Origin: Diphasiastrum complanatum
Taxonomy: Eukaryota; Streptophyta; Lycopodiopsida; Lycopodiales; Lycopodiaceae
Direction of reading: 5' to 3'
DNA: 64,000 bases
NCBI GenBank assembly: GCA_029204225.1
Contig: CM055111.1
Span: 42,844,815 to 42,908,814 of the forward strand
Shown in pieces: positions 5,871 to 45,820 of this stretch (positions are counted from its first letter, which is position 1; each line of letters starts with the position of its first letter). The notes under the pieces are model-generated. The model saw only the letters and a program-made list of their open reading frames with translations, made no database searches and was not told where the DNA came from. A program made the position numbers and the translations under genes.

Positions 5871-6689
5871 TTGCAATATCAATAAGTGATTTATCTTATT
5901 TGCAAAAGTCCAAATAGTCTATTTGCGTCGAGCTATCTATAAGTAGATCTATGTTAGATTCAAGTCCAATAGGCCAGACGAGGGTTAATATTTTGGTTTT
6001 TTCTTGGATGTTTTTCTCAATTTTTTAAAAAATGGCTGGGAACTAACCTTTGCACTTCAAATAGAAGGTTCACTGCATCAGGCCAGTCCTGTTTGGAAGT
6101 CGGTGAAGGCTGGTGGCAAGGGACAGAAAGTTATTAGAATAATGATCTGCACCCTGTCTTCTTGACCCATTCTTCATCCTCCATGTGTCCCACACATAGC
6201 TCGTCCAATGTGACCATTTTGCCCCTTTTTGTCTCCAACAAGCAGAAACAAATTTTCCCACTTAGAATTTAAAACATATTATAAGACTTTTTAAAGTTTA
6301 AATCATAAATTGGAGGGAAATTAACTTTTCCTCTCCCACTCATACCTTCCAGGAAACCACTCAGCTTGACAATATAAGAACATATAATTTCGAGGCTTTT
6401 TCTTTACAACATTGTGAAGAGTTATTTTCTCTCTTACATGTTGAAAGTCCGCCCTACCAGTTCACGGATCAACAAAATATTATCTTACGATAAGCATCTT
6501 TCTCTCTTTTGCATTGCTTTCTCAACGCTCTACTCTCACAATGATATTTCTTTGATAGCCTTTAGCTATTGATTATGCTTGCTCATCACACAGAAATATG
6601 AATGAGTTTTTTTTTTTGTGACTGTGTTGGCATTCACATTAGATTAAATCTGATACGAAAAATTGAAATTAAGTATCATATCAGAGAGG
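5871..6689. other. Stretch without a recognisable gene
   Basis: AT-rich. It lies between the gag end of the gypsy fossil and the first exon-like frame of the plus-strand gene. No promoter, repeat or RNA gene can be supported. Confidence 0.45.
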
Positions 6690-8020
6690 TTTTTGGTGCC
6701 CAAGCTTTGAAAATAGCAATGGCAAGGAGACCCAGATCTACAATCAAGTCTATGATTCTCTACAATGAGAAAGATGAAGCTGATAACTGGAAGCCAACAA
6801 AATATACGAAGAACTCATGGGTATTGCTGCATCCATCATCAAAGGGCAATTTTCGACAAAAGAAAAGAGCAAAAATGACTTACAAATCTTATTAAAAAGC
6901 AAAAAATTTGGAGTTTAAGACTATCCCGGGAGGTCAATCTATATCAGAAGTCTTAGTACAACATGTATCAAAACATATGCACTCTACAACAATCTTAGGT
7001 GATTTTCTTTATTGATGCTCTTCAGATTATGATTTCAATACTTCAACATTGTTTTTTTCTTTCAGATTTATATCCATCATGCATAAGTGAATGGGAGCCC
7101 TTACAATCACTTGCAGGAATATTAGATGTGATTCACTCTGATGTTGAAAAGCTGCAATATAGAGGAAGAAGTCCAAAGGAACTTGCAGATTGTGGTACCT
7201 ATTATTATGAATCTTTATATACGCCACAAACAGATGGAGGTTTTGGCAAGCTCGAAGCAATTCCATTGCCTAGTTTTCAAAGTGATGAGTGGCTACTCCT
7301 GACAGCATTGTTTCTGAATCCTTGAGATGCAAGCTACTCATTGATATTAGAAATGCTAAGAAGATAAGCACAGGCTCAAAAATTGTTCACCTAAGTTGGT
7401 TTATCTCATTACATATATTTGTTGATTTTTTCTCGAGTGCTAGTGTTCGTAGGACACCAACTTTATTTGTTTGCAAGGATTTATCAGATGAGACTTTGTC
7501 AGATCTCATGGATCAAGGCTGGGATAGTAAAAAAAATAATGACATAGAATGCAGGATTAAAAAGTCCTCAATAATCATTTGTTATCATATCGAAAAGCAA
7601 ATGCTTAGTCTCACATTTAGCTACCAGAGATACAAGAAAATTGAAGGTACATGGCTACCACTGGATCAAGACTTTGAACTAAATGGTCACACAAACCGAA
7701 TGGAGATAAACATTATCTACAATGAGGAATATTTGACTATGGTTGAGGTGGAAAAGCATTGGAAGCTTGATTTTATCATAACAGACCTCATGCTATTACA
7801 AACCAATCTACCAACATATTTCAAATTTATCATCAATGGAAGACTCGTAAGTACTTTATGTTTATGGCCATTTCAAAATAGAACAAAATAATAGAAAATG
7901 TCATCATTTACAATTGCACATTCACTAATATTTGTCATGTCACAGATGCGAAAAAGACAGGAGCTGATAATGTGCTGCAAAGATCTACCTACAACAATCA
8001 CCATTGTGGGAGAACAATAG
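6690..8020 (+). CDS. Unrecognised spliced gene or gene remnant, convergent with the H3-protease gene
   Basis: Several exon-like open frames follow one another on the plus strand: 6690-6893, 7067-7323 (after a TTTCAG acceptor), about 7425-7849 and 7946-8020. The last junction is clear: the frame ends ...G-R-L at a GTAAGT donor (7850), resumes after a CACAG acceptor at 7946 and closes with TAG at 8018-8020. The protein is neutral to basic. It contains Q-Y-R-G-R-S-P-K-E-L-A-D-C-G and G-W-D-S-K-K-N-N-D-I-E-C, which I cannot place in a family. One frame change between 7323 and 7425 may be an unrecognised intron or damage. Only about 195 bases separate its stop from the stop of the opposite gene. 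The two may belong to one two-gene element, but that is inference. Confidence 0.4.
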
Positions 8021-8215
8021 TTTCAAATAAACTTTAGTAGAAATCTGTGTATACACTCTTTCATTCAATAAATGAAAGCCCAAGTTGGACATCAGTACAT
8101 GTATTTTGTGCTTCCATATTCATAAAATGGAGTAGCATTTGATATATAAATGTATATTTTTCTATGAATTCTATATATGTATTTTTTTTCTATGCTATCT
8201 ATATTTGTTCTGATC

Positions 8216-9970
8216 TTAATTTAGTATAATTACATCATCCTTTGCACCATCATCAATAACGGGAGGCTGAAGCCTTGCCCTAGCCAGTATCCTCAAGATG
8301 ATTTCTTGTCTAAATCTGTACACCTGGCTTGATGTGTACTCAGGAAGTGTAAACTGCAAAATAGAACATTCATGTATTAGTAATGGCTAAAAACATCAAC
8401 AAAATAGAAAACTAATCATGATTCCAAAATAAGAATAAACAGAATTTATTACCTTAGAAATATCAACATCTTGCTGAAGGTTGAACCACTCAAAAAATAG
8501 CTTTGCATATAATGTGTTCCAACCACAGCTGAATGAATCATTTTGCTGGGGTGACTGCAAAATAATTTAGCACACAAGAAATCAATTATCAAACAGAATG
8601 AATTAGAATGAAACAATTACATTAGAATACTGATTTCAAAATGCTATTAAGAAAGACAGAGTTTACTTCCAAACTGACGATCTGCCAATCCACGGAATGG
8701 GGAACATCTGTAGGAATATATTTACTTAGATATGGAAGATATATATCTACATCCTTATGCGTATTTCTCGCCGAATTCATCTTGACACAAAAATCTTTAA
8801 TACGATTATTTACAGATCTCTTAACAGAGATCAGATTTAAACTCCAGTGGTCACTGCAAAATAAAATTGAAAGTTCTTTAGCGGCAATTCTGAGAACTAT
8901 TTAAATTGATGATGCCAATGTTAATGCATAAAACAACAAGAAGCATTTAATATATCTTACTTGGTATGATAAGGGATGAGCAGATACTTTGTTGCTGGTG
9001 TGAATCCACTTGTCAGACACTATGACAATGTGTCATTATTCTCCTTGAAGGCCTGAAGCAGAAAGCTACTCAGCACCAGCAACTCATTGGATGAATCTCT
9101 TGAAATGTCATATTGCAAGAGTGTCAGCCCGGACTCTATCATAGGATCACTGATAGAAGTCCGTCTGTCTTTGAGATCCAAGCAATCTAGAGCTCTAAAA
9201 TTAATACTAAAATCAAGTTCATCTAGTCTAAAACAAAAAGGAGTACCAATTGTATCTATAGCATCAGATATGTCTTTCTCAAATTTAAGATAATCATCCG
9301 AATCTATATATGTATAAAAATTTGGAGGAAAGGGAGGAGGTGGATGTGTAGTATCTACAATAATTAAAGGGGTATCCAAAACAAATGTAGCTATATTTAC
9401 AACATTATCAACAACAACATTATCTACAATTGATTCCGGGTCAGGTTTCACAGAATCTGTGGTGTCTACCCTCTTTACTTTCTTTGGAGCTCTCTTGGGG
9501 GCTGTCTGCTTCCTAGGACGCTTCGTAGGAAGATCAATCCTATCTAGAGGAGTTGGTCTGGGAGCAGCAGGCTGAGATACGTGTAACCTGCAAAACCTAT
9601 CCCTCATTCTCATCAGGACCTGAAAATCCTTGGGCATTATGGTGACTCTCTTGGAATGGATGGCAAGCAAAAATGAATCTTCAAAAAAAAGACTAAGGTA
9701 ATCTTCAGCAGCCTCCTGAAGGCACTTAAGAGCACTGGGTGTAAATTTGACCAGCTGTCCGAGATCATTTCTTGTTATGTTTCGGACAGCACGGTAGAAT
9801 GGAGCTCTTGGGATCAACAGTGTAGTTGATCTCTAATACTTGCGTATCTCAGAGAGCCACCTGCTGCGGTTGTGCGTTCTAGGTCTGGCAGGATGTGAAA
9901 TGGCAATTGCAGGGGCTGAGGATGAGCTAGGAGAGAAGAAGTCCCTCCTTGTCTGCTTTCTTCTATCCAT
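8216..9970 (-). pseudogene. Histone H3 (CENH3-like) fused to Ulp1/C48-type cysteine protease, four exons
   Basis: Exons: 9970-8961, 8853-8631, 8554-8453, 8353-8216. All introns (107, 76 and 99 bases) are GT-AG and all phases agree. From the ATG at 9970 the protein starts M-D-R-R-K-Q-T-R-R, parallel to the H3 tail. An E-I-R-K-Y helix follows at residues 41-45, then L-L-I-P-R-A-P-F, L-Q-E-A-A-E-D-Y-L and K-R-V-T-I-M-P-K-D, which is H3 through about residue 126. The L-L-I-P and E-A-A-E-D features resemble centromeric H3 more than canonical H3. A linker with a Lys/Arg-rich block (about 148-168) leads to a C48 protease: Y-L-L-I-P before D-H-W-S-L, an Asp 18 residues after the His, then S-P-Q-Q-N-D-S-F-S-C-G-W, giving the H-D-Q-C set. 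Expected length is about 490 residues. In-frame stops in exon 1 suggest this copy is dead. Such proteases cleave SUMO-like tails in host cells and also ride on plant transposons. I know of no H3-C48 fusion. Confidence 0.78.
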
Positions 9971-10059
9971 GGACGTGTACTATGCAATAGCGGACTTGTG
10001 CGTGACGGCGAGGATGAGCAGGGAAGGATGATAAAGATCTCACAGAGGACCGATATGTA

Positions 10060-10240
10060 CGGACAGAATGTACGGGACCTGTGCGAGTTGAATATAAGAG
10101 AGAGAGATTAGTTTTGAAGAAAGGCGCACAAGTGCAATACGGGGGGGGACACGTAGGCAGATGTATCGGACCTGTGCGCATGGAATGCGGTAGGTGGAAT
10201 TTCGATTGTGAAGGACGCGCACAAGTGCGATCTGCGGAGC
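10060..10240. repeat. Two diverged ~90-bp units with GGACCTGTGCG and CGCACAAGTGCG motifs
   Basis: The block around 10071-10137 (GGGACCTGTGCG ... GGCGCACAAGTGC) recurs at about 10159-10222 (CGGACCTGTGCG ... CGCGCACAAGTGCG). CGCACAAGTGCG is nearly self-complementary. On the minus strand the units lie in the presumed 5' leader of the H3-protease gene. Confidence 0.5.
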
Positions 10241-10278
10241 GAAAAAAGAAATTGAAAAAAATTCATCAAAGTTTGTGA

Positions 10279-10305
10279 TTTTATATCGTGGTTCGCACGT
10301 GCGAA
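10279..10305 (-). promoter_or_regulatory. TATA box with adjacent 14-bp palindrome, candidate promoter of the H3-protease gene
   Basis: Read on the minus strand, TATAAAA (10285-10279) follows a perfect palindrome TTCGCACGTGCGAA (10305-10292) that contains a CACGTG core. The TATA box lies about 310 bases upstream of the ATG at 9970. The spacing fits a plant promoter with a G-box-like element. This is sequence resemblance only. Confidence 0.4.
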
Positions 10306-10439
10306 AGAACATTGTCACACATGTGGGAAAACAATCAAAATACCACCAAAAACACTACAAAAACATAAAAAGAACCTTCGTCTGATTTGCTGCACATAGG
10401 TATGATTCAAATCTATGTACTGTGAGGTCAGAGAAGATT

Positions 10440-12030
10440 AATACCAAAAATAGAAGGCCAAAGTGACTATTCATCCAATTGCTGGTAGCCTTTTATAAAA
10501 AAAATCAAGATATATTGTGATTGGGTGCCACGTGCTGCTGGACTAATAGGTACAACAAAATCCATATCCCATTTGTGAAATGTTCTGCTTTCAAGTATTG
10601 AGTAAGGAGATTCTGGTCGGCTTTCTTAATTTTCTTTGCGCGTTGGCAAACGTCACAAACTTTTATATAAGCGTAAGTGTCTTTGAAAAGGGTTGGCCAC
10701 CAAAATCCAGCCAGAAGAATTACCCTAGCAGTAGCATCGGAGGAGAAATGTCCACCTCCAATACCCTCATGTGTCAAGGCAATAATCTGTCGGACTTCAG
10801 ACTCATGTGCACAATGTCATGTAATACCATCAACACCTAACTTATATAATTGTCTTGCAATAAGATGATATGGTAAAGATTTCATAATAAGCTTGATTTT
10901 TTGTGGTCTCGTCTACTGGACTGGACTCATATAATGGGGGTTATATGGTGCTTGTGGTTGTCCTCATGGTGCATATGGCTGTGGGCGAGAGTATCGCATG
11001 TTGCGTGGGTTGTACCTAGAGCTTGAGGTGGTGTGAGTGGTCATATCACAGAGTATACAATGCTGCATTTCGTAAAGACGGTGTGATGGGCACTCATTAC
11101 CTGTATGTGGTCCACGACATTGTGGGCACCAGGTATCTTCTCGCCTATGAATAGCGTTACCGGATGGCAATTGCCCTGGCAACTGACTCTGAATAGATTT
11201 TAAGGCTTATTGGAAATCTTTATTGATTTTCTCCATCTGTTGTTGATGTTGTTGATTCATCAACTCGAACTGAGACTTCCAGACTTGGTCTGAATCTCGG
11301 GGCTCACTTGGACGATTTCAAGGTAAACACGGTGAGCTTTCTCTCTTTCTGGTCATCATCACCAGACCCTTTATCTTCTTCACAAATGGCATCGGACATA
11401 GCAGATTTAAGAGTAAAATACTTTTCGCTAGGTTTAAGCTCTTTTCAGATGCGTCTGGGAAGACCAACTATAAACCATATGATTAACATTTTGTCAGTTG
11501 GCTATTCCTGGACTTGACTTCTGAAATGCTTGAAGCGCTCGATGTAGTCACGTACGCGTTCATATTTTTTTATTTTTATATTACTAGGGCTTTCTGTGAG
11601 TCTAAAAGGTTGGAAGCATTTAATGAAAGACTCTTTTGGTTGTGACCAATCTCATCAATCATCACGATCGAGGTTAAAAAACCACTCAAGTGCTTTATCT
11701 ACCATGGTCATTGAGAAAAGTTGGACTTTTGCATTATTAGTATATTCTCCATACACTTTGCATGCATTCTCAAAGACTTGTAGAAATATATGAGGGTCCA
11801 CATTACCATCGAACTTTGGTAATTCCAGTTGGGGTGTTCGTTTATGAGATCTTGCGGCATGGTGAGGATGGTGAATAGTGTGATCATCAGGATTAGGTGT
11901 CCATCTGAATGGTCCAAGATCTTGGTTTACCTCAGATCTAAAACGATAGGGCTTGTTCTCATCATTTGGATGATTAGTCGGTGTAAACTCATCCATAACT
12001 CCTTCTGGTAAATTAGCCATGAGAATGATT
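10440..12030 (-). mobile_element. Ty3/gypsy retrotransposon fossil (gag and integrase parts)
   Basis: The gag domain is at 12020-11655, beginning M-A-N-L-P-E-G-V and containing L-P-K-F-D-G and A-L-E-W-F motifs. A zinc knuckle lies at about 11140-11090 (W-C-P-Q-C-x4-H-x4-C). The integrase H2C2 zinc domain with the W-W-P-T and C-D-V-C-Q-R-A-K motifs is at 10777-10640, followed by the start of the core. The parts are in family order, but the protease-RT block is not recognisable. The copy is broken and old. It runs up to the motif-rich leader at 12160-12450. Confidence 0.82.
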
Positions 12031-12729: not shown

Positions 12730-13260
12730 GAGCATTGGTTCCAATGTTTGCTATTGTTTCTCTATCTTTCTACTACTACTAGCGCTTATTCTTTGATTGA
12801 CAGATTTCAGCCAGCTATCAACCGACAAGGTCTACCTACTTCTAACTTCTATGATTTGCAGTATAGTGGTAATGCAATTGTGATGTATTCGCCTGTCAAT
12901 TAGTACATCTACGAACTGATCTCAATCCTAGTGATAATGGATGCTCAACTTCAATCTGGATCTATGAGAATTCGAATACCTATGTTCTACAGTCTGTTTT
13001 AAATGTTTCTTAATGCATGAAGATGGAGCGTAGATGGAAATGCAAATAGGAGGATCTTCAATTAACAATGCAACAACATTTTAGTACAGTATCTAGTGCT
13101 CAGAAACTCGTGGGAGAGGCCTCTATCTATACCCACGAGCTGGTGAATCCAATTTCATTATATTTGAAACTCGTAGGAGAGGCCTCTATCTATATCCACG
13201 AGCTGGTGAATCCAATTTCATCATATTTTGGATTCCACCTCTTACAACTGAGTGACATTA
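12730..13260 (+). repeat. Left inverted-repeat arm, with internal 63-bp tandem duplication
   Basis: Matches the reverse complement of 18708-19463. A 63-bp unit (13103-13165, repeated at 13166-13228) starts GAAACTCGTGGGAGAGG; the right arm has this unit once. Each unit contains complementary arms CTCGTGGG and CCCACGAG around AGAGGCCTCTATCTATA, so it could fold into a hairpin with a TATA-like loop. Confidence 0.7.
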
Positions 13261-13949
13261 GAGGAGTTCTCAATATTAAAAAGACCTTTTAAGGAATGCC
13301 ATGTAGGATATAGAAAAATATCAAAATAAAAAAAAAACAATATTGTTTATTTGCTTGCCCCCACCACTCCCGAGGCCTCCCCAACTCCCAATGATCTAAC
13401 CATAGTGTCTATAGTCACAGTTAAGAACTGTTAACAGCTCGCAGTATAACTTGACTAAATTCAAAAATATTCTCTCCATTGGTTACAAAAAGGGCAATAT
13501 TTTCACTAGATCTAGAATATGACCGCCATCTCCAAATTCGAATCAGGAAAAATTGCAAAATGTTTACATATGCATTCCTTCCACGAGAATGGAAATATGG
13601 GTGCCATCTCCAATTATGAATGCCATCATCACTTTGGAATGGAAATATGAGCGCCAACTACCTATTGGAATGAAAAAATGAGTGGCATTTCCAAATTTGA
13701 ATCAAGCATACAAGCATGGAGATTGGATTGATCGTACATAGTATATAATATAATCAAAGATGAGTACTTTGCTTTGCTTCATAAAATCTGGTCGTAGTAC
13801 ATTGATGCAACTGATTACTCTATTATTTTTTTGATGATGACATTGTATCATCTACATGTGGATATCCCTATTGATTGGCACCTTTGCAGAGAAGAGGAGG
13901 CAAACGAATTCAAATATCTGTTGAGAATCGTTCTCGCTATAGGGCAGAA
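13261..13949. other. Spacer between inverted-repeat arm and transposase
   Basis: AT-rich. Holds three diverged ~50-base units reading like GAATGGAAATATGRGCGCCA (13540-13700). No gene is recognised. Confidence 0.4.
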
Positions 13950-16060
13950 TGAAAGAAAAACTTGGATTTGTGGATAGATGGAACATTATATCCACAAGAT
14001 CCAAGCACTTTGACACATCCCACATTCTCTTCAATAACTCATTTAGTTACATGGATATGCAGTGGGCATAGTGAATTACTTGGATATTGTGAAAGATTGC
14101 AGAACCATGGAAAACAACTTTATATGAATAAAGTTCACTTTTTAGAAGGTGAGTTAATTCGGATATCCTCTTATTGTCAAAATAGAGATTGTCATCTCCA
14201 AAAGACGTTAGAAGAAAATGAACAACTTAAAAAAATAATGAATTATTACAGAAGATAACAATCAATATCAAATCAGAACTAGAGCAAATGCAACCAGTGT
14301 TACAGTCTATTCGTATTAAAAACTTACAATTATTGAAGGATGTGGATTTGGCAAAGAAGAAGGCTGAAAGTAAGAAGCGAAAGCGACAAAGTTGCAAGGA
14401 TATTCAAACGCTTTCAAAAGGAGGTTATGGAAATAGAAGGATCCGTGCATTCAAATAAGCATATTCTGATTTTTGTAAGTTTTTCAATGACATTTGGATT
14501 TAATTTCAGCTATGGTGATATTCTGTTAACTATCTGTTTATTTTGCAGATCTGCATTAGTAGGTCCTCGAAATAGTAAAGACAATGCTTCACTAGGAATG
14601 TCATTGGACACAATATTGACTTACAAATCCACTGAGCATATCATGATGAACAACAGGATTCCAAATGTAAAGTGTAAAATAGCAGAGTCTTTGATGGTGG
14701 ACATTCAAAAAAAATTTAGATAACACTATAGTTCAGGGTGCTTGTGATTTTGCAGGTATTAGTAGAGAAGCATATGCAACAATATTTAAACTAATTAGAG
14801 AAGCTTTTAAGCAAGTTCAAATTAGAAAAGTCCCAATCCCTAGGACATATCACTTGAAGAAAGAGAGGGATACAATAAACATAGGTATGCATAAGATCAC
14901 TGGAACTCCATTTCATATTGAGGAGGTGTATGAAACTGATGGAAGATTGATATTCTATAATGCATCAAACAGTTTATTTGTTGATCTAAATTACTTGCTA
15001 AGATACATCGTCACATTCTATGATATAACCTATGAAAAGGTGAATGGCAAAATAATCATAGTACTTAAGTTAGATGAGTCAAAAATTGTGAAAGGGCAGA
15101 AGATGGAGAGGGTTAGTATAACTCTCATGAATGGTGCTCTATCACAAACAGAGAACCAAGAAGATTTCAGATTTAGTGTCCAGTCAGAAAATGATATATG
15201 GTGGTTGGCAGCGTTTCAGGTAACTAGCCTCATTATTACATTACATTCATTGAATAGTATTAATACATTGTAAACTAAGTCTGATTAATTCTTTGGAAAG
15301 TGCTAAAAGAGGATCATGATATATTATCATGGATATTCTCAAGGACATCTTATCCTAGGATCATCAAGGACCATATGGATGGAGGACTTCTCAATGTTCT
15401 AGGAGTTGGAGACTTCAATGTTGAATGGCACTTAGCAGGTGATTTGAAAACATTGAAATGTATGTATAATGTCTCTCACGGTGCTACATCAAAACACCCT
15501 TGTTTGTACTGCATGAAAATGGCAAAAGATGTAACTAGGAGTACATGAATTACTAGAGAATATACAGATCCAAACTGGAAGCCTGTGCTGCCTATCCCCT
15601 TAAAAAATGTGCATGTTTGCACTCTTCATGCAGAAGTTAGGTTAATAGAAAAGATCATTTATCTTCATATAGTTTTTGCTTGGAATACTAAGCCAGCATC
15701 ATTAGCAAAAAAACCTATCTCTCGATTAGAAGATGTTTTATCAAAAGCAGGACTCCATAAAGGACATGTCGAAATTCAAAAAGATGAAAAACTTTCAGGA
15801 AAGAATGGGAACATGCCAACTAAGCCAAGCATAGGAGGAGCAAAAGCACGTCGTTTCCTATCAAATCATACTGGTAAGGCTTCTAATATTCAACACTCAG
15901 TCTAGACAGATATTATTGCTGCCACTCAGGACTTCAAGAAAGATGGCAAAACTAGAGTACTAAAAGTTGATGTATGGAAAAAGCTTGATGGTAGGATTGC
16001 TATTTTAAGAAAAGAAAAACTCTCTGATATTGATAAGAAAGCTGTCCAAAGGACTTGTGT
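13950..16060 (+). pseudogene. RAG1/Transib-like DDE transposase, copy A (lacks C-terminal part)
   Basis: Spliced gene. An N-terminal part reads D-L-W-x-D-G-T-L-Y-P and W-I-C-S-G-H-S-E-L-L-G-Y-C (13962-14258), then a coiled, basic stretch (14270-14450). The core follows: first Asp in V-L-K-L-D-E-S (15073), then V-S-I-T-L-M-N, an intron at 15219-15300, E-D-H-D-I-L after the intron, second Asp in A-G-D-L-K-T-L (15441) and a C-x2-C (15501-15512). The order S-I-T-L-M, E-x-D-H, G-D-x-K, C-x2-C parallels RAG1 around D600, D708 and C727/C730. Homology with the copy at 33380-35830 ends at Q-R-T-C near 16055. The His cluster and catalytic Glu are therefore missing, and a different frame follows. Several stops are present. 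The DDE assignment is fairly sure; the superfamily is not. Confidence 0.6.
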
Positions 16061-18640
16061 CGATGTAGACGCACTTGAATACTTCGATGAAGGCGATCTT
16101 GTAGAAGAGGAGGTGGAGATCGTTCCAGAGGCTGCTGCACTAGTCTCACCACTAACCACCACCACCGTCATTGTTGATACCGCCTCCATCATTCTTTCTC
16201 TTACCACTACCACCTCCGTTGCTATTGATGTAAAGACACAACTAACTACTCCACTTCCAACTCATTCCATGACCTCTCAGTTTTCTTTTCCTACCTACCA
16301 TCGTCTTCCTTCCGAATTCCCAACTCTTTCAACCTATGACAGTTTGTCTGAGAAAGCCAGGGAAACCTTGAAGTGGCATACCGAGACCTCATACCATCTA
16401 CATTGGTTGGTGCACTAGCTTGCACAGCAGACAGAGGATGGCAAGGCAGGATCTGCAGCTGAAAGATGTGAAGTTGCTGACAACTTTGGAAGAATTACAA
16501 AGTGAAAGGGCCAAGAGACTGGAGCAAAATCAATTCTTGAATCAGCTCCAGTCCCTTCAAGAGGTGCAAGACCAGTTTGAGCACCGGTTAGATCTCCTGA
16601 GTCAAGAAAATAAGAGACTAATTGATGCGATGATGATGGTCAAGCAACCAATAAGGCTAGAGCTTATCAACGTACCAATTCCATCTTCAGGAGCAGCAGT
16701 AAAAATGGAGAAGCATGTCTCCTTGATTCAAAAGCACGAAGCCCTGAAGAGGAACAAGCAGATCTCAGAAGAAGAGAAGAATAAGAAGCTATCAACACTC
16801 TAGGAAAGCGTCAATAAAGTCCAAGAGGAACTTCTCCTGTCAAAGCAACAAATGGATCTCATATGGGATACATCATGTAAACTCGATGTAGGCATATTAG
16901 TGCAAAAAAAAGATGACCATAACGATGATGTCGAAGCACCTGATAAAAGCCGATCCATCACCAACAAGGTGTTGGTCTTGGCATGCTGTATCAGCGATCC
17001 ACTGCTGGCCCTCTCCACAAACCCGTCATAGATTTCTCTACTTACACTCAGTTGCCTCACTCATCTTTTTATTTTTCCAATCCATTTTTATCTTACCAAC
17101 CATCACTTTTTTCATTTACTCATTCGACTGCCTCCGCATTCACTTCCGATACCATACCCACCACATCTTCTCTAAAATCCAAATTTTCTAAAATAATTTA
17201 TTTCGCCAACAGCTCAGTATAAACTCATAACTATCCCACCACCCTCTTCTCATAAACCATTCTCACCTCCTTCACCACTTGACTTCAATTCTTTGCATCA
17301 CGATCCACTTGATGAGACGATGCAGCCTTCTGTGGGACTATCTCCATCTCCTCCGAAGAGTAAGAGTGAAACCTTTGCTGGATCAAAGTCCGAGGGTTAT
17401 ACTTCAAAAGTTTCGGATACCAAGAGTGCCACTGCACTGGATGACTATCTTGCAAGACCCTTAGGGAAGCTGCCTGAGAAATCTATAGAAAAGATCAAAA
17501 GATGCTATGATGATCGCAATGAGTCTAATGAGTTTCAGAAGACCTACAAGAAGGGAGAATGAGTGGTGGCAAAGAAAATAACGGTTGAAGAGTATCCAAA
17601 GCTCAGTAACCTTGTGAACGCCCTATGACCACAACCCTCTTGGAGGATTGTAATGCTGCTGAACAACGATGAGCAGCTACAAGAATACCTAAGAGTACCG
17701 AGCTGGAAAAGGACGATCCCTACTATGTGTCGATCAAGAGAAGAGATCCTTGGGAGAAAATGAAGCCAGTCGAGCGACAAGTCAATTGGCTTATCATTAT
17801 AGGGATTGACCCAAGATCAACCTTTGTAAAGCATCAAGACGCGCTCCTAAATTTTGGGTATACCTATAGGGGAAGTGTAGATATTGTAGTCCAAGAAAAC
17901 GCTAACTATTGTTTATCTATAGCCTTTCTTGCGACATTAGAATGCTACTGGGATAAAGGTCTACCATCCATCAGGTTGGACGTCAACCAGCCTTTAGAAA
18001 TGGAAGATGCACATCTAATGATGGCGAGACTTTATTTCCGAGCCGCCTTTACTTCCAACCAGTACGTGTAGATGATCGAGAAGTGGTATGGAAAGAAGTT
18101 CATACCCGGAATGAAGCCGTACCTGGGACCTATTGAGTTGGGTGCAAAGACGAGGTTCATTACATTTGAATCCATCAGAAGGAAGGTCGGCTACAAAAAA
18201 TCTCTTGATAAAAGAAAACCTGACAAGGAAAAGCAAGAGACTCTCAGCTATTCAAGGTTGTCCTAAAAAAAGCTATTGAAGCTTGAAGATTTGCCGAGAC
18301 ACACAATAACGAAGCCAATAAGTCCTTGGTGTTATGTAGGCAAGCACAAATCCATGCCTTTCCAATAACCATACATCAAAGCTCTTCGAAGCAATGCAAT
18401 GGGACCTGCAACACTATAGGGGAGGATAATGTTAGCTGATGCCATGCCCCAAGGTGTCGATGCAGAACCTCTCCACTCAAAAGGGCTTCCAGTAGAGATG
18501 AAGTTGAGAGCCGAGTCTGAGAGCACGAGAAATATTAGTGCTAGGCTAAATGTACAGTTTGTGAGCCTCACGGTAATTCTCGAAAGATGGATAGCCATGT
18601 GGGAGCTAGCAATTTAGACTATCTCAACTTAAGTTATGTT
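16060..18640 (+). pseudogene. Unrecognised interrupted frames: Thr/Ser/Pro-rich, coiled coil, globular end
   Basis: A nearly continuous set of plus-strand frames starts directly after the transposase fragment. In order: an acidic then Thr-rich stretch (16060-16400), a Gln/Glu/Leu-rich coiled coil (16420-16870), a Ser/Pro-rich stretch (17030-17420), L-D-D-Y-L-A-R-P-L-G (17437-17466), a basic helix-rich part (17470-17800), then a globular-looking part with N-F-G-Y-T-Y-R-G-S-V-D-I-V-V (about 17850) and W-Y-G-K-K-F-I-P-G-M (about 18090). The frames end near 18640, just inside the right inverted repeat. I do not recognise the family. It may be the accessory protein of the inverted-repeat unit or an old viral-type polyprotein. 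It is not intact. Confidence 0.4.
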
Positions 18641-18707
18641 TTTTAATAAAGAGGCTTCCTATTATCAAGTAAGAGGTGGATCTCAAATCTTTATAGATTG
18701 GGGTTCG

Positions 18708-19463
18708 CTCAGTTGTAAGAGGTGGAATCCAAAATATGATGAAATTGGATTCACCAGCTCGTGGGTATAGATAGAGGCCTCTCCCACGAGTTTTCGAGCA
18801 CTAGATACCGTACTGAAATGTTGTTGCATTGTTAAATAAAGATCCTCCTATTTGCATTTCCATCTATGCTCCATTTTCATGCATTAAGTTCGAGTGCTAA
18901 TGTATGAATGTGTTTTGTTGTTGATTCTTCCCCTTTAAAGTTTGCATTTGTGATTAAGATCAGGTAGATGTGCAAGGCCTTGTGGTAGATCAATACCATT
19001 CTGATCTGATGCTTCCTTATGCTTGACTCCCTAAGGAGTTCTTGTTACAATTGTTGAGTGATAATTGTAGTAAGCACTTTGTAGGATTGCAGATCTTAGT
19101 TATTTCAGTTTTGTTGATTCTGGTGATTTCAATAGGAGTAATTCCAATTTCATTCCATGTTCTTACTTAGATTAGTGTAGCAATAATCTGCAATCTGTAA
19201 GAACTCAAGAAACATTTAAAACAGATTGTAGAACGTAGGTATCCGAATTCTAATAGATTCCGATCGAAGTTGAGCATCCGTTATCAGTAGGATCGAGATC
19301 AGGTCGTAGATGTACTAATTGACAGACGGGTACATCACCATTGCATTATCACTATACTACAAGTCATAGAAGCTAGTTGGCTAATAGCTGGCTGAAATCT
19401 GCCAATCAGAGAATAAGCGCTAGCAATAGTAGAAAGATAGATAAACAATAGCAAACAATGCTC
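18708..19463 (-). repeat. Right inverted-repeat arm
   Basis: Reverse complement of the left arm. It carries about 300 bases (roughly 18895-19200) that the left arm lacks. They sit between the segment matching 12740-13010 and that matching 13013-13260. Confidence 0.7.
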
Positions 19464-23068: not shown

Positions 23069-24844
23069 ATGACGTTTCTGCCGCTCAATTCTTGGAATTC
23101 AGCGATGCAGGAGGCAGCAGTAGACAATGCTCCGCTCTCACCCTCTAGTTCTGAGATGGACTTTGAATCCTTGGTGCAGTCTCCTGGGGCCGTTTCCTCT
23201 TCCTCTTCTCAATCTATCACCTTTCCTTCCTCCTTATTAGACGATGTGGATACTCGTACTAGATCAGACTACCAGAGCTTTGCCAATTTTGATGCATTCA
23301 ATACACAGACTGCTTGCAAGGGTTCACCCAGGAAGGAATCTTCGAGAAAATTCATAAGAATTGCGCAGAAGCTTAAGGATAGTTTAGGCCAGCGGTTTTC
23401 CGAGAGTTTCCGTGAGAAGATGGGCGAAATTGTAAGGCAGGAAGCCGCGGGGGGGAATACTGAGGCTTTGAAGCTGAAGTATCAGCTGCTGGGAGGGCTT
23501 CCCGAAGAGGCCAATCCGTGGGAAGAAGCTAACTATCAGACATGGGGAGGCTTTCTCGGTATAGAAGCAGAAACGGATGACAAATCATCGCCCACATCCA
23601 CTGCAAGCAATGGAAGCAGCAGCAAAAGCAGAAAGAATCATCTGCCTGCTCTGGCTCTTCCTCCGGCAAGCTTCGCTCTTCCAGAGAGCTTCCTCAAGAA
23701 TTCCCCCATCTCTTGGCAGAGATCTCCGCTGCTCAGCCCCTGGGGATCGAAGCGCATCTGCGGAACGCCCCCCGGCCTCAGCCTCAGCCCTCTTCTCCCC
23801 GGCGGCTGGGATGGGCTGCCGCTGAACGAGAATGACTCAGAAGACATGGTAGTGTATAGCGCGTTGAAAGAGGCAGCGAGTAGAGGGTGGGCGCCCTCTC
23901 CTGTAGCGATGGCGAAGCCCGGCAGCGCTCAAGAGGCAGTGAAGCGAGAGCAAGCTAAACAGCCCATGCCCGTGAACACCATAGATCGCGCCTCTGCCCC
24001 AGTTCCAGCGGTGGCTGCAGCTCACGGCAACACAAAAGTAGAGAAGCAGGAAAAGCCTCGGCACTATAGAGGAGTAAGGCAGAGACCTTGGGGGAAATTT
24101 GCAGCTGAAATCCGAGACTCAGCGCGTCAGGGAGCGCGAGTGTGGCTGGGGACGTTCGACACTGCAGAAGAGGCAGCACTGGCCTACGATCAGGCTGCTC
24201 TCAAAATGCGAGGATCGCGAGCTCTTCTCAATTTCCCTCTCAACGTCGTCTCGTCCTCCATGGCTCCTCGCACCTCGTCGAACAAGTCCACCCTCTCTTC
24301 CTTGGCTCCTGCTCCGGCCCACGTCAATATTTCTGCAAGCTCTCTGACTATGGCGGATGCCGTCACATGCCAGCCAAGCGTCACAGATCAGTTACAGCGT
24401 ATAGTTCAGAGATTGACCTCACAAGCTGTCCATATCAATAAAAAGAGCCAGGAGGGATTGATACAGGATGATCAACTCCTTCCAGCCACAGCCTCCTCTG
24501 GCGTGCAATGGAGTAAGAAAAGGCCGGTTGATGGTAGTGCCGTCCTTAACACCAGTGATGTAAGATCCATGGATAAACGTGCGCGACTGATATATAGTGA
24601 GAACAATGCTGCTGCTACTGCTTCAGCTTCTGATCACTCAGAAAAGCAAGAAGACGGAGGCTCCTTCTCCTCTTGCCTTTCCGATCTTGCCACTCAAGCT
24701 CGTGATACCACCAAAGCTGACAGGCCTGTCATTGTTGAGATCCCAGATCTTGGGGAGAAGTATTTGGAAGATCTGCTTTCTAGCAGTGTGGGAAATGAAA
24801 TGGAGTCCTCATCCCCATCTTTCAACCTTTTCCAATTTTTGTAG
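23069..24844 (+). CDS. AP2/ERF transcription factor, ERF subfamily (group IX-like)
   Basis: Single 591-codon exon, intact. One AP2/ERF DNA-binding domain spans residues 333-391: [31 protein letters not shown]. The Ala/Asp pattern assigns it to ERF rather than DREB, so GCC-box binding in the nucleus is expected. An E-D-L-L motif (567-570) within an acidic C terminus is the activation motif of ERF1-type group IX proteins. The 330-residue N-terminal extension is long for this group. It includes an acidic Ser-rich start, a basic helix (about 88-125) and a Ser/Pro-rich middle. GC content is clearly above the flanks, as expected of a conserved gene. A donor-like GTAAGC at 23050 leaves a 5'-UTR intron or an upstream start possible. 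The ATG at 23069 is the first in frame. Confidence 0.93.
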
Positions 24845-27214: not shown

Positions 27215-28940
27215 CAACTTTATTGTGTACTCCCTCTTGATCCCATGCTCATCACCTTGAACTTGGTAGAAATATACTCACCACCATTGTCACTCCTCAA
27301 GCACTTGATCTTTGTAGAAAATTGGGCCTCCCTTGCAATCTTGAGCTTGACAAAGACATCAAACACCTCATCTTTGCTCTTTATAGATAAACCCAACACA
27401 ATCTACTAAAATCATCAATGAAAGTCACATACATCTTAGCACCTCCATTGCTAATTGTAGTAACACCATGAATATCCGAATGCATAAGTTGGAAAGTCTT
27501 ACTTGATCTCGATGTAGACCTATTGTAAGGTTACCTATGTGACTTTGATAAAGCACATTGCTCACAAACATGATTCAAGCTTGTTAGAGAGACCAAACAC
27601 AACTTGCCTCTTTGCCATCACCTCCAATGACTTGTAGTTGAGATGCCCCAATCTCTTGTGTCACACCTCTTGCATTGAAATTTTCTCTTTTGCCATACAT
27701 CCAACTTGGTTAGCAACAACACAAGCATCAAGTTTGAACAATTTACCTTGCCTTTTCCCTTTTGCAATCAATTTATCTTCTTTCTTGATCAAACGAGCAT
27801 CACCAACAAAATCCACCTTGAATCACTTATCAAGTAATTGACTCACACTAAGAAGCTTCTCAGTAATGGAAGGAATGAACAAAACATCTCTCAAATTCAT
27901 ACTCCTATTAGTAGAGAGGGAAATAGGAATTGTGCCAATCCCTTTGATTGCACACTCAATATCATTGGCCGTGTAGATCACCTTCTTGTCACCTTCAAAT
28001 GCCATCAAAGATGAGTAATATTCCTCGTAATATGTCATATGTGATGCAGCTCCACTATCAATCCACCAAGGATCAATATCTCCATGATTAGCCAACAAAC
28101 AAGATGACATAACAAAAGCATCATTTGAGAGTTGTTCATCAACACCATCTTCATCAATAGTTAGGTTGGTTTGCTTCTCACCTTGATCTCTTCTTCTTGA
28201 AGCAATCATTAGCAAAATGCCCTTTGACTCCACAATAGAAGCATTTTAACTTTGACCTATCTTTCTTCTTACCAACAAAAGTAGAAGGCTCACCTTGATC
28301 TTGACCCTTTGACCACTTGCCTTGCCTTTGCCTTTGCCCTTGAATTTGCCTTTGATGAACATGGCCTCTTCTCCTTCTTGAGATGTTGTTGTAGAACCAC
28401 CTCTTGCTTGAAGCCTAAACTCCTCATTCACCAAAATCTCTTGCAAATCCACCATAATTGGCAAAGTCTTTTGAATAGAAAAACTTTGAACAAGATTAGC
28501 ATGATCATCCAACAAGCCATTAAGTACAACTTGAACAAGTTCTATCTCCTTAATGCTTTCATCCTTCTTTTGCATACTTAAGAAGATTTGTCTTCTTAGG
28601 GTTAGAACCCTAGTTGCAGACTTGGACTCATAAAGCTTCTTCAAAGTCTCCCAAGGCTCACTTGATGAAGTACACTTACCAACTTCCTTGAGAAGTTCAT
28701 TAGTCACATTCATCTTGATAATGTGTAGAGCTTTCTTATCTCTATTGTCATACCTCAATTGATCTTGAGGTGCCAAAGGTATTTCCTCCACACCTGCAAC
28801 AATATCCATCAACTCATTGATCTCCAATAAGGACTCCATCCTCACCTTCCAAGTAGCATAGTTGATTGAGATAAGCCTATCATTGCCTTCCAACATTAAG
28901 CCACTTGAGGCTGCCATGTTGCAATGATTTGATCTTCTCT
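27215..28940 (-). mobile_element. Ty1/copia retrotransposon fossil (gag, protease, integrase)
   Basis: Minus strand, in order: gag from 28917 (M-A-A-S-S-G with the W-K-V-R-M-E and W-E-T-L-K-K-L-Y motifs), CCHC zinc knuckle near 28245-28200 (C-x2-C-x4-H-x4-C), protease with W-W-I-D-S-G-A-A-S-H-M (about 28060-28020), GAG-pre-integrase (about 27660-27560) and integrase ending in S-D-N-G-G-E-Y (about 27280). RT and RNase H are not seen. An LTR-like stretch lies just beyond at 26750-27200 and a motif-rich leader at 29300-29650. The copy is broken but gag is readable over long stretches, suggesting moderate age. Confidence 0.88.
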
Positions 28941-29299
28941 TTAAACCTGTTACAATGCACTTAAAACTCTCTTGAAAATCAACAAATGAAACTCAAGAAG
29001 AAAACACAAAGATTTGGAAACGCTCTAGCCTCTCCTTTTCTCTCTCTAGCAAATAGCACATAGAATGTAGAGTTTTTGATCACTATAGATCAAACCTCAA
29101 TATAGTGAACTTTTGCTAACATCTAAGATTGAAATACACTCTTGAAAAATTCCAGAAACTTAAAATCAAGAGATCCTATCAATTTTAGGGTTTTTTTCAA
29201 ATGCAAAATATTGAATCAAGCAAAATCTATATGAAGAAAGTAAGAGTTTCTATCTTTCAAAGCCTTAGCATTTTTCTTAGTTTTTTTCTTTGCTGTTTT

Positions 29300-33379: not shown

Positions 33380-35830
33380 GCATCTCTTTGAATTATATCC
33401 TCCATGGTTGGTTGCTCGATGAAAAGCTCCTCTTGCTTGCCAATGCGATTTCTCCATACCTTGAGAAGACCATACGCTCATACTTCTGTATTCTTTTGCA
33501 AAAAATGTGGTGTGATGCAATAGAATATGCTGCAACCAGTAAAATACATATATCAGAAATCAAATATATGATGTTTTGATGTTGTATGATTTTTTTCACA
33601 AAAACAAATATTGAATTACCATTTAGTGGGTAACATGATCCTTTCTGCAACATTATGCTACCGATTTGACAAACATCTCGCAATCTTTCTGCAAATTTGC
33701 AATGTCATTTTCAGATAACTTTTTTTTTTTGCAATATGCCAATCAGATTGTCGAGATTTTGCCATACTGCAACTTTTTGTAATCTTGTGTTGCCCCTATC
33801 TTCAAAGTCATTTGATGCTGCAACAATGTCTTTCCAAACATTGTATGTCACGGTAGAAGACTTTCCAGTGTGATTGGATAGAAACCTTCTAGCTTTTGCA
33901 CCTCCAACAAATGGCTTATTTGGAACGTTCCCTGATTTACCTGATAGTTTTTTCACTTTTTTTCTATTTTTACATTCTCCTTGTGCAAACCTGCTTTTGA
34001 AAGTACTTGCTCTAATCTCTCAATTCCAATTTAGAGGCCGATTCAGGTTTGGTATTCCAGACATACAAAATATGATTGTAAATCAACTTTTCAATAATTC
34101 GTACCTCAACATGCAATGTGCATATGTGAACATTGATCAATGGAATTGCCAACACAGGTCTAAAGTTTGGATCCTCTCGATCTCTTGTTGGACCAACTCT
34201 TGATCTTGTCAAATTCAAGTCTTTACAATTCTTCATACAATACAAACAAGGATGTTCAGTATTTGCCCCATGTGAAACATTATACATACATTTCAGTGTC
34301 TTTAAATCACCTGCAAGATGCCATAAAATTTGAAACGTGCCATAGTTTGGCACATGTATTTTGTTTCCACCCATGTGCTCTTCAATAATCTTCGCATAAT
34401 TTGATGCCGAAACGACAAGATAGCATGGTCTTCTTTTAAAACCTGAAAAGTAACAAACATATACAAAGTTACGAACATTGACATTAGCAAACTTAGGTGA
34501 TAAAATACAATAATAAGTAAAATTGAAATATACCTGAAATGTTGTTAAGCATCATATTTCATTCTCTGATTGAACACTAAATGATGAATCTTCTTCAACT
34601 TGTTCAGTATCGTTCAATGCTCTGTTCATAAAGGTGATACTTACATGTTCCAATTTTTGTCAACAATTTCATACTCATCAAGTTTAATAACCAATATCAA
34701 TTTTTCATGGACTTCTCTTTCAAATATTTTGTAATATTTAATCATGTGGCACTTTGTTGATATCCAAAAATAAATTGTTGGACTCATTGTATTCCGATGT
34801 TCCACTCTCACATGTATACAATTTATTGATATGAAATGGTTCACCTACAAGCATAGTCATACTCTCATTAAGACAATATCTTGTTTTTTTTACTCTAAAT
34901 GGACGAGGAAGAGCTAGCTTTCGAATTTTCACATGTGCAAAGGCCTCCTGTAAAATTTTAAACAATAGAGTATATGCTTTATGACTAATTCCTGAATCAT
35001 CACATGCTCCCTGGATAACTCTTGCATCCAAGACATCTTGAATGCTTTTTATAATCACTGCAACAATATCATTCTTAATCCTGTCATAACGAGAATTTTT
35101 CAACAATTCTTTTGTAGATTTTGATGACAATATGGAACCCAAAGATTTTCCAATACTCATAGAATCTTTAAAATGTTCTCTCACCACCAAAGATGATCTA
35201 CAAGACATAATAATAAACTTGATCTTAAAAAGAATAGCAAGCATTAGAAAAACAAGCACATAAAAAATAAGCAAGCGTGTCATTGCTCTTTTCATTAATA
35301 CTTACTTGAATGCTTGAATCCTTTTCTTCTTGTTTCCACTTCTTGATGACAGACCATCTATGTCTTTTTTTGGAAGTCGTTTGCGTTTTCTTATATTCAA
35401 TTTTCTCCTGAGAACTTCGACTTCAGCAATAGCACTCAAGCTTGCCCTTTTAAAATTCTCTAACATCTCTGAAGTTCGGTAACAATAGTTTGCAATTCTG
35501 ATATATTGGAGCTCAATGTCATATTTTCGCATATTTGTTTTTGCAAATTTTCTTGAAGTATTGCCTTTTCATTATTTGTTTGAATCAACAAATACTCCAA
35601 AAACTTTGTTCGCTTCATTGCTTCGTATATCCCGTATTGACTCAACTTTTGGCAGTATCCCAACAATCCACTATGTCCATTACACACAAAACTCAATAAT
35701 TGGCCAGTAGTTTGAAAGTCTAGAAAACATCATGTACTTGGATATTTTGGATAAATTGATCCAACTGTCCACAAATCAATATTTCTACAATTATTTTCTC
35801 TAAGTTCTTTCTTACAGGTCTCATTAATCT
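33380..35830 (-). pseudogene. RAG1/Transib-like DDE transposase, copy B (with C-terminal His cluster and Glu)
   Basis: Minus-strand homologue of the gene at 13950-16060. N-terminal part: D-L-W-x-V-G-S-I-Y-P near 35770, and C-N-G-H-S-G-L-L-G-Y-C near 35680. The middle is 35295-34840. An intron sits at the same place as in copy A (about 34530-34447, after F-Q and before V-L-K-E-D-H). Then A-G-D-L-K-T-L with the second Asp (34308-34306) and H-P-C-L-Y-C. A last intron ends near 33530, before H-I-L-L-H-H and S-x-V-W-S-S-Q-G-M-E-K-S-H-W (Glu at 33454-33452). This matches RAG1's H-x4-H zinc site followed by W-A-S-E-G-N-E with E962. The region around the first Asp is poorly preserved and there are several breaks. 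No terminal repeats were found. Confidence 0.6.
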
Positions 35831-42000: not shown

Positions 42001-43355
42001 TGAGCTACTTCCTTCTGAGCTCAAAAAATTCATTAACAAGTTTTTAAAATGAACTTCCCCATAAAAAGTCTCATCATTTCATTCACAAAAAGTGAGTCTT
42101 TGAGAAAATTCAGTCACTATTATGCAATCATTTGGAATGCTAATTTTTCTGGTGTGATGTGCAACTTTGACACAAATCAAAGCTACAAGAGCTACATTTT
42201 CAACATTATGGACTCATGACAAGGCCTAACTGTGGTACCTTATCTCACTAGTTGTAACAAACAAACAAATAAGAAAAGCAACGTACTTTCAAATTAGTAT
42301 TCTTTTTAGCATCTCTCAAACTGAAAAACAAACATCTCAAGTTGGCACACATTTTTTAGGATCTTCAAGCTAGACATAGCTTGATCTTTACATTTTTTTC
42401 AAATAAATCAATTTCAAAATTTAAAATTCTAGTAATTAAAATTACTCTTAAACAAGTCAAATATGTGTATTTCAAAAAAAAACTAATAAATCTGAAAATT
42501 GATTTGTTGAATTGTGAGTGTGATTCTTCATTTAGTACTACTACGCTTTTGCCTAATGAATTATAGTGATTGTGTATGCAACAAATGATGGTGAACTATT
42601 GAGAAAGTGGGTAGTGTATTCCTACTCATAGACGGTGGCAAAAGGTCAAGATTGAGTATTGTCGAATGCTCCTCAATGAGCAAACAAATTCATCGATAAT
42701 AAAAGAGTTTGCATACAAAAAGAAGACAATGTATGTTATTTCATCAATGAGAAACTAGAGGAACAACTATGTTATCACAAAATGAATATACTTACGCATT
42801 CTTGAGGATGTGCCTCAACAAGCTCTACATGATCTATATTGTGATCCGTAGTTAAGGAAACATCATATAAGAAAGTCATGACAGATAAAGCAAGATAACC
42901 CAATTGAGATTGGAATGCAATAAACTCCTCTTCAGAGGGTACACTACTTCCATACTCACGTATATTTGCTTAAGGCATTTCGCAGACAAGCCTCGTTGCT
43001 AAAGAAACCTTGATCTCCCTTGTCATATATGCTAGGCAACAAGTCATCATTTTCAAAATCTATAATATATGAGAATTTTGAAGTGGTACTTGAAAAAAAA
43101 TATAGAATTTCATCTTCACAATAATATGAAAAATCACATAGCAATGTAGTATTATATTCATCATCATTGATATAGTACTTCTAGATATAAAAAGGCCTTG
43201 GAATAAATATCGCTTGAGTCTTCTTCTAAAAAAGAAAGTATGTCAAAAAAAGCTCTACATTATTAAAATCATTATCCTCAAAAAGTGTGTTCATAAAAAA
43301 GTGACTAATATTTGTCTTAACAAAATTGACAACTTAAGGTGGAGACTTCATCTTG
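42001..43355. other. Stretch without a recognisable gene
   Basis: AT-rich with short frames only. The minus-strand frame 43144-42956 is acidic and aromatic-rich but unrecognised. Confidence 0.4.
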
Positions 43356-43363
43356 TTTAGAGC

Positions 43364-44056
43364 CATAGATGCCTAGCGTTTCTGAAACGCATTTCAGAAT
43401 CGCGTTCAGAAACGCAGTTCAGAAACGTGTTTCTGAAATTTTAAAAAAAAATCCAAAAACGTTTTTTTTTTTTTTGTTTTTTTAGAGCAATATGGGTATC
43501 AAATGAAAGCTCTAATTAAGAGCATAATTACTGTGTAATTTGTCGACTGTTTCGGGTGCAGAATGGTCCAATTCAAATGCATTAATCCATGTTGGGTTCT
43601 GTCAAGGATAAAAATTCAAAACTAACCTCTAGCATGTTCGTTACGATCACAGATGGTCCCAGTAAGTGTGTTTTCACTCAGGGAGTTGGAAGGCCAAATC
43701 ATGAAAAGGCCTTACCGTCGGGGCCGGGGTCTATCGACAGCCCTCGGACCCTGCCGTTGGGGGGCATTGCCCCCCAAACCCCCCACCAAGGGGCTACCGC
43801 CCCCCGAAACCCCTGAGCATTCATTGAAAACCAGATATAACAACCAAATAGCTATTGAATATAAGATCTGTTTGTGCCCCAACTACTACACTTCTGAGAG
43901 GCAAAACGTTGGTTTGATCATTGATCCCCTAAAGAAATTTCAGCCATAAGCTATTTTTCCAAAAATAAAAAATAAAAAATAAAATTTGTGATTCTAGGTT
44001 TAGAAACGCGGTTTTAGAAACGCATCCTCCCATAAACGCGTTTCTGGGCATCTATG
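43364..44056. mobile_element. Non-autonomous hAT-like element with 8-bp target duplication
   Basis: The left end CATAGATGCC (43364) and right end GGGCATCTATG (to 44056) are inverted repeats. Both are flanked by the same eight bases TTTAGAGC (43356-43363 and 44057-44064). Eight-base duplications and short TIRs indicate hAT. Subterminal GAAACGC/GCGTTTC words cluster at both ends (43380-43440, 44000-44045), as transposase-binding repeats do in hATs. The centre has a G/C block (43720-43815) with runs of C and G. No transposase is encoded. A truncated relative lies at 60830-61020. Confidence 0.85.
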
Positions 44057-44064
44057 TTTAGAGC

Positions 44065-45820
44065 TAGAAGTGTCAATCTCTTCTGGAATTTGAAAGATTA
44101 AAAACAACACAAAAATTATTTGATATTCAAGATATCTACATATTTTTCTACAAATTACAAGAAATAAAGTTTTTGGATTGATCAGAATGCTTAGTATACA
44201 TCTTTTCTGAGTTTTGTTTGTGGTGTTGATCAAAATAAAGATGATCAATCAAATGTATAAATAAAAGTCGACCAAATGATATAATTGTTATTTCATGATA
44301 TCTCCAAGTTTGATATAGTGTTCATGGAAAACCTTGGCATCCTCCTGAGTTGTTCGGAGATTACAAAACTACATAAATAGTCATGTTGCTTTTGTGCACC
44401 AAAGACGGTTTGAGGCAGTGTTGGGCGGTTCTCAAATATTTATAATAACGATTGGTTTAGGGTATTGCCCCTTTTTTTTAAACCAAGAACCATTGGTTCG
44501 ATTTTTCAGCAAATACCAAACATACGCAGATTGAAACATCTCTCAGTAAATACGTGTTCAGTATATATGAAATCTATCAAGTAAGAAAGACAGGAATTCT
44601 TCATAACTTTTGCTCATGTACAAGAACAAATTCATTATGAACTCACTTCAAAAACTGGGTATACAATATAAGCACATAACATTACCATCTAGATCCTTAC
44701 TAGCTTGATAAAAACAAGACAATATATTTTTCATAAAAAGCTTATACTTGGGCTCCTTGTAACTGGTAGCAGCATATTTTTTATCCAGATCTGCTAACCT
44801 CCGCACTACTGCCTAGCGGAAACACATCTTGCAGAAATGCTAGTCTGCATGACCCATCAATGTGCTCAGGCAAAACTTTTAAAGCATGTGTTGCATGGTT
44901 TCTATGTTAAAACTTTTGGGCTTTGAGATGCGGATGGTGCAAATGCTGATATGAGAAGTTAACTTCCTGATAGCTAATGTGATGGAACCTTGTGAAAGAG
45001 TCAACCTCTTATATACTGTAAACCAGATCAATGTGCATAAAGGTGAATGCCAACACTAATGAATTTGTGCTTCCTGCATGAGAGACAGTTCTTAATCTGT
45101 CATTATTCAACTGTGTAAATACTATGGTATCTTGTTCCTCATTCCAGCTCATAGTTTGATGCAAAGGCTCATGACAATTTTTTTGTATTATAAACACTGA
45201 AGTGGTGCCAAAGTTGTGATCAACTGCTAGTATACTGCCAAACAAACACCCTGAATGAAGATGTTCGCCATTTGTTCAAGGATCATTGAGTTCAGTTACA
45301 TTAGTGAGGTTCTAGAAGCCTTTCAGCTTGTTGAACAGCACCAATCTTTACAGAAATGGGCAATAAGAAGTACACCTGATATGAAAAATGACTCACTTCG
45401 TATTACCTCGGAAGAAGCAAACACAATTATGAAAAAGCGCAAGTCCAGGAACACCTTCCACACCTTTTGGGCTTTCTTTCCAGGTGCAGCAACAAGTAGA
45501 GCATATATTTTGAGGTATAGGTGCTGGTGGTTGACCCATTCCCTTCCGTAATGTCCAGTTTATGCAATGGAAGCACCTTGGAAAAGGTATTGATAGCAAG
45601 CAGAATAAATCCTTCATCATTGCTCCTATTGCCTTGAGATCCCCATATGGAAGGTTCTTCACTTAAACATTCCACAGATACGCATCCACTTATATCTGTG
45701 ATGTGCTATTCACAATATAAACCACCATGAGAGCTGAAATCTGACTAAGCTTGGGCTGCAAGTTGCAATTTCAGAAAGACATCCACCAAAAAAGTAGCAG
45801 GAGCCTCATAGAACATGAAA
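44065..45820. other. Region downstream of the TOM1-like gene
   Basis: AT-rich, with short frames only. The end next to 45824 should hold the 3' UTR of the minus-strand gene. I could not fix a polyadenylation site. Confidence 0.4.

Follow-up and report, generated by a model that had tools for sequence, protein, structure and literature searches.

A mobile element of the clubmoss Diphasiastrum complanatum encodes an H3-like histone without lysine 9, joined in some families to a C48-like domain

Why would a histone and a protease-like domain share one gene? The question is raised by a locus in a 64-kb stretch of the Diphasiastrum complanatum genome (C20:42844815–42908814, hereafter the window), for which a preliminary description had proposed a single gene joining an H3-like N terminus to an Ulp1-type cysteine protease. 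When the gene was rebuilt, its coordinates (8216–9970), minus strand, four exons, intron phases and GT–AG borders were all recovered exactly, giving 478 codons, and all intron acceptors read TTTTGCAG. Exon 1 (8961–9970, minus strand like the others) encodes the H3 tip, the histone fold (residues about 21–123), a linker and the start of the C48 domain; exon 2 (8667–8853) the C48 part bearing the His of DHW; exon 3 (8453–8554) the C48 part with the Gln and Cys of QQ......C; and exon 4 (8216–8353) the C-terminal end and a TAA stop. Pfam recognized a Histone domain in residues 21–123 of the window protein (PF00125, E 1.8e-25, exceeding the curated cut-off) and a Peptidase_C48 domain in residues 326–451 (PF02902, E 4.4e-6, 27.1 bits against a cut-off of 20.7). 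The frame is interrupted by two in-frame TAG codons on the minus strand that had been overlooked. One is codon 46 (9833–9835) in the H3 αN helix, where the 18 other copies in a set of 19 have CAG, and one is codon 317 (9020–9022) within the C48 domain, which is CAG in 12 of the 19. Because of these two stops in exon 1, the window copy is dead, a relic.

We searched the genome (1.74 Gb, 5176 contigs) for repeat copies, as the preliminary description had advised, and found that the gene is part of a multi-copy element. A histone profile search, in which 150 of 6325 first-look candidates were scored, gave 153 matches; among those listed, 13 were canonical H3 (about 164 bits) and the rest scored 83–110 bits, many of them in long open frames. 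A DNA search with window positions 6000–10500 gave 77 matching pieces from 36 scored candidates of 7724. Twenty loci, chosen from the histone profile matches for long open frames, were retrieved, and they comprised eight with H3-C48 (family 1), eleven with a second histone gene (family 2) and L028, which carries a third histone type and a degenerate fourth. The window copy, the eight family-1 loci and ten of the 36 scored DNA-search matches made up a set of 19 aligned copies, two of which (L068 and L074) seem to be one copy in duplicate. Canonical splice dinucleotides were present at 104 of 114 positions in this set. The order of the two halves, their frame and their splice sites recurred in the other copies, and the earlier claim that histone and protease belong to one fused gene was borne out. 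An H3 retrocopy lying by chance beside an unrelated protease might have been suspected from the window copy, with its two stops and its setting amid retroelement pieces; the shared architecture of the other copies refutes this reading and leaves it practically no probability. Together with the selection described below, the splice sites also rule out a chance fusion or a lone pseudogene.

A whole-protein search of 5.8 billion proteins, which finds only relatives sharing 5-residue words, so that absence from other plants does not follow, gave 11 proteins, all with a histone domain; none of the 10 that were scanned had a C48 domain. Residues 130–478 searched in the same way, again with shared 5-residue words required, had no match at E up to 10. 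Two ENA-contig proteins, P0008 and P0010, have a long N-terminal part and a C-terminal H3 domain, and only the histone is well seen by Pfam.

The anatomy of the element was read from its more complete copies. Complete copies of family 1 measure about 9.3 kb, have inverted repeats of up to 35 bp that begin CATTAG, and carry, in this order, a putative transposase (gene A), gene B on the opposite strand, H3-C48 (gene C) and gene D on the opposite strand; genes B and D have no assigned function. L026 (9305 bp) has inverted repeats at both ends with mismatches, and L018 (8681 bp, with an internal deletion) has them at both ends, 35 bp and perfect. A common 3′ end was seen in six of the eight family-1 loci, similarity fading earlier in L017 and L024. 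In the window, the H3-C48 gene lies in a truncated family-1 element (6617–10328, minus) that is about 90–92% identical to several elements and has lost both termini; a relic of gene D (7065–7735, plus) is convergent with H3-C48 and is 88–94% identical to gene D of L026 by tblastn. A second, partial element opens with a CATTAG terminal inverted repeat at 13256–13290 (plus). Of 40 listed genome matches to its first 500 bases (13256–13755), 38 start at base 1, a count that includes this second element itself. Part of its putative transposase follows at 13764–16063 (plus), with DNA homology to L018 and L026 and protein homology at 14941–15917. The window gene is almost certainly a member of this repeated H3-C48-carrying element.

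Several other features were noted in the window. A long imperfect inverted repeat (12742–13255 and 18705–19460, arms up to 170 bp, 89–97% complementary) has the second element at the inner end of its left arm, and its right arm runs on without an element. Relics at 33822–34791 and 43028–44359 (both minus) resemble the family-1 putative transposase (45–70%) and gene B (27–57%) and come from another family of this type, and no second histone was found in the 64 kb. A 590-residue open frame at 23069–24838 (plus) has an AP2 domain (E 5.8e-17) and is perhaps a host transcription factor gene, and Copia-type gag (E 1.4e-17) and reverse transcriptase (E 6.3e-8) pieces lie at 28249–28992 and 53952–54293 (both minus).

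Genome-wide, the 30-base repeat end with at most two mismatches had 1017 + 1054 = 2071 matches, which are ends and not complete elements, and the reversed control had none. Ten more 5′ ends, picked from the matches to 13256–13755, were followed to the 1.4-kb stretch in which the far end of a full-length copy is expected; none of the 10 had a 3′ terminus there, so most copies are incomplete. Fixed terminal inverted repeats in many dispersed copies point to a TIR DNA transposon, and the guess that the protein is a selfish one is upheld by its place in a repeated element with such repeats and a putative transposase. Several genes per element would also suit an integrated histone-encoding virus, and some viruses do encode histones; yet two scans of IMG/VR viral contigs found no relative of the histone exon or of the putative transposase, Pfam found no viral protein among the four gene kinds, and the probability of a viral origin is slight. 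Pieces of the putative transposase matched no known transposase domain in Pfam; the putative transposases of two families are 49% identical and share invariant acidic residues and a CxxC. A target-site duplication (3 bp, tca) was seen in one of six complete pairs and none in the other five. The 8-bp duplication that passages of PMC12730594 give for KDZ (Zisupton) transposons was found in none of the six.

The histone is not confined to one family. In family 2 the four gene kinds recur, differently arranged, with 49% identity to family 1 in the putative transposase, 27% in gene B and 34% in gene D, and its repeat likewise begins CATTAG, as seen in four loci. Its histone fold forms the C-terminal end of a Pro-rich protein, and no C48 domain was found in the family-2 loci examined. 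Family 3 has a near-perfect H3 tip, all 134 scored candidates (of 8594) matching over most or all of 293 residues, and C48-like pieces were present in one of the two downstream stretches read (L091, E 5e-10). Family 4 is represented by one degenerate copy with C48 pieces. At least three families of the element encode H3-like histones.

We then asked what the copies record of past function. Only 2 of the 19 family-1 copies have an unbroken spliced frame, and the set contains 51 stops, of which 37 are TAG and six lie in an unrelated 3′ part of L025. Across seven family-1 copies (21 pairs) mean omega was 0.20 for the histone fold, 0.31 for C48 and 0.57 for the linker. Between family-1 subgroups it was 0.13 for the histone (18 pairs) and 0.25 for C48 exons 2–3 (12 pairs); within subgroup A, constraint was weak (histone 0.65, linker 1.35). 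The family-1 histone is under purifying selection between subgroups, and family-2 histones had a pN/pS of 0.43 over 55 pairs. This pattern fits genes that would be selected during element movement and released after insertion. That 17 of 19 copies are dead might instead mean that the element merely captured a host gene of no use to it. Such a passenger is disfavoured by the selection results, with omega well under 1 between subgroups in both histone and C48, as well as by the family-2 constraint and the presence of a histone in at least three families, and we consider it very improbable.

The encoded histone part appears to belong to the H3 family, as it matches the H3 profile and its best PDB sequence matches are H3. 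A weak structure prediction (mean pLDDT 51, pTM 0.28) placed four helices at the H3 positions. Foldseek returned no match at E ≤ 0.001, and its best seven hits were nucleosome chains (1.2e-3 to 6.1e-3). The H3–H3′ contact residues His113, Arg116 and Asp123 are kept. With tail numbering started at the residue that follows Met, K4 is present in 19/19 family-1, 11/11 family-2 and 14/15 family-3 copies (44 of 45 in total), and K9 is present in none of the 45 copies read. Position 9 is Asp in 18 family-1 copies and Gly in one, Asp in nine family-2 copies and Gly in two, and Ala in all 15 of family 3, for which 14 tails were chosen from the 134 matches for lack of stops and include some near-identical pairs. 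No lysine occurs between K4 and the αN helix in eight of nine family-1 copies, L015 having one. In family 2 the first ATG places four residues ahead of the H3 tip. The D. complanatum protein P0059, which we took to be the host CENH3, has K4 and an Ala at position 9 (counted from Met); since it also lacks K9, the loss may have been inherited rather than selected.

The preliminary description had called the histone CENH3-like, and this held only in part. By eye, loop 1 is one residue longer, as in CENH3, in family 1 and in the single family-4 copy, and families 2 and 3 have a loop of the canonical length; family 1 has EAAED, and family 2 has TADAV where CENH3 has TAEAL. In a tree of 62 rows (24 of them unnamed matches drawn at random and five CENH3, one of these entered by hand; P0005, P0038, P0108, P0115 and P0127 dropped out), families 1, 3 and 4 clustered together (99/97). 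The four transposon histone types fell on one side of a weak branch (86/69) where long branches meet, apart from land-plant CENH3. A joint clade with land-plant CENH3 was not rejected, either for all types (AU p 0.54) or for families 1, 3 and 4 alone (0.48). Fold identity to host H3 and to P0059 is 59% and 54% for family 1 and 57% and 60% for family 2. A centromeric-H3 origin is neither shown nor excluded. If the histone were the element's own CENH3, taken from the host centromeric H3, its copies might behave like centromeric chromatin. The longer loop 1, the EAAED and TADAV motifs, K4 without K9 as in P0059 and the unrejected joint clade are all consistent with this. Against it stand the canonical loop in families 2 and 3, a free tree that does not unite element histones with land-plant CENH3, the closer identity of family 1 to host H3 and the dispersal of the copies, and we judge it rather unlikely.

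The C48 part raised a similar question of function. The ordered H, D, Q and C residues reported earlier were found again for His (17 of 19 copies), Gln (18) and Cys (16); the Asp, at codon 357, occurs in only 4, with Gly in nine and Cys in six. In alignments to solved Ulp1-like proteases, the catalytic Asp stands opposite Lys (top two) or Val (third). The His-Asp-Cys triad plus Gln of Ulp1/SENP proteases is therefore incomplete, with no conserved catalytic Asp, and for this reason we name the domain C48-like and not a C48 protease. The domain is under constraint, and SUMO-protease activity is doubtful.

The histone might alternatively serve for targeting: it would guide the C48-like domain, or else the transposition complex, to centromeric, replicating or SUMO-rich chromatin, either to pick insertion sites or to strip SUMO, and the absence of K9 would be incidental. 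The fusion in family 1, the C48 pieces in families 3 and 4 and the constraint on C48 (omega 0.31) speak for such a role. On the other side, family 2 retains a histone although its loci yielded no C48, the catalytic Asp is unconserved, and the 124 listed non-canonical histone matches are scattered over all contigs C1–C23 (small contigs left out), which leaves the earlier suggestion of centromere entry unsupported. Dense clusters of the family-1 repeat end did occur on C1, at 64.97–66.68 Mb and 95.0–99.9 Mb, among its first 100 exact matches. One segmental duplication accounts for three places in the first cluster, and L061 and L063 share 97% identity across 4012 bp, flanking sequence included; centromere targeting based on the 65–66.7 Mb cluster was rejected on this ground. 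We regard the targeting role as unlikely, though somewhat less so than the centromeric one.

The dead copies carry a further signature. In 17 family-1 copies (L017 and L025 left out), the C-to-T rate was 0.114 at CG, 0.108 at CHG and 0.038 at CHH sites, compared with 0.017 for A-to-G/T-to-C, and both window TAG stops fit a change from CAG to TAG. Such an excess would be expected if methylated cytosines at CG and CHG sites had been deaminated. Plants silence transposons through an H3K9me2–CHG methylation loop, and by their substitutions the elements look like past targets of it. CHG methylation is maintained by CMT3, which, according to passages of PMC9256654, is stimulated by H3K9me2 with H3K18. 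We propose that the element would express its own H3, which would pair with host H4 and enter chromatin, most likely the element's own or that of fresh insertions. Having no K9, this H3 could not carry H3K9me2, and the loop that silences transposons would break there, while the C48-like part would have as its local targets silencing proteins that carry SUMO, either binding them or acting on them. The dead copies look silenced, and any protection would therefore be incomplete or past. Taken as a whole, the explanation that the window holds a dead copy of a mobile-element gene whose encoded K9-less H3, with its C48-like part, may counter silencing is the one we favour, by a narrow balance. Countering of silencing by the K9-less histone on its own we put forward more tentatively, as we infer the link from the silencing scars to the K9-less H3. 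It is possible, with similar or slightly greater reserve, that the element represents a new class of eukaryotic DNA transposon, one that would bring its own K9-less H3, and in some families a SUMO-pathway domain, and would swap the nucleosomes on its copies for ones that the H3K9me2–CMT3 loop could neither mark nor read.

If this is true, the contest between transposons and chromatin would extend into the nucleosome itself. The families provide a set of naturally occurring H3 tails maintained in the absence of K9, which makes it directly testable whether swapping H3 alone frees a locus from CHG methylation, and they suggest a route by which H3 variants may be captured, altered and spread. How does the element compare with known systems? 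Its histone shares with plant CENH3 and canonical H3 the histone fold, the H3 tip and the H3–H3′ contact residues, and it differs from host H3 and CENH3 in its 45–60% fold identity and absence of K9; unlike them, it is joined to either a C48-like domain or a Pro-rich insert, and its gene travels in a mobile element. Ulp1-type (C48) domains also occur in plant transposons such as Kaonashi MULEs, which resemble the element in having a C48-like domain in a mobile element; these domains are not known to be fused to a histone. Giant viruses and bracoviruses encode histones, and are likewise selfish elements with core-histone homologues, but they are viruses and not a plant DNA transposon. A search of the literature by title or abstract start, covering few subscription papers, returned no transposon-encoded histone and no H3-C48 fusion, and passages of PMC12730594 and the two histone passages of PMC12062965 name no transposon-borne histone. 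Transposons carrying enzymes or regulators that undo silencing are known, whereas one encoding a core histone was absent from the literature searched. The closest relatives in kind are DNA transposons with genes that counter epigenetic silencing. The passages of PMC12730594 describe fungal DNA transposons with TET/JBP dioxygenases, including Zisupton, Kyakuja, Dileera and Plavaka, which, like the clubmoss element, carry an accessory chromatin gene thought to aid escape from silencing. Their gene encodes a methylcytosine-removing enzyme and that of the clubmoss element a core histone, and the two also differ in host, in gene set and, to the extent tested, in transposase. The same passages name VANDAL (MuDR) anti-silencing proteins and SET-carrying Harbinger/MuDR elements as transposon-borne counters to epigenetic silencing; these elements carry regulators or histone-modifying enzymes, whereas the clubmoss element carries the histone.
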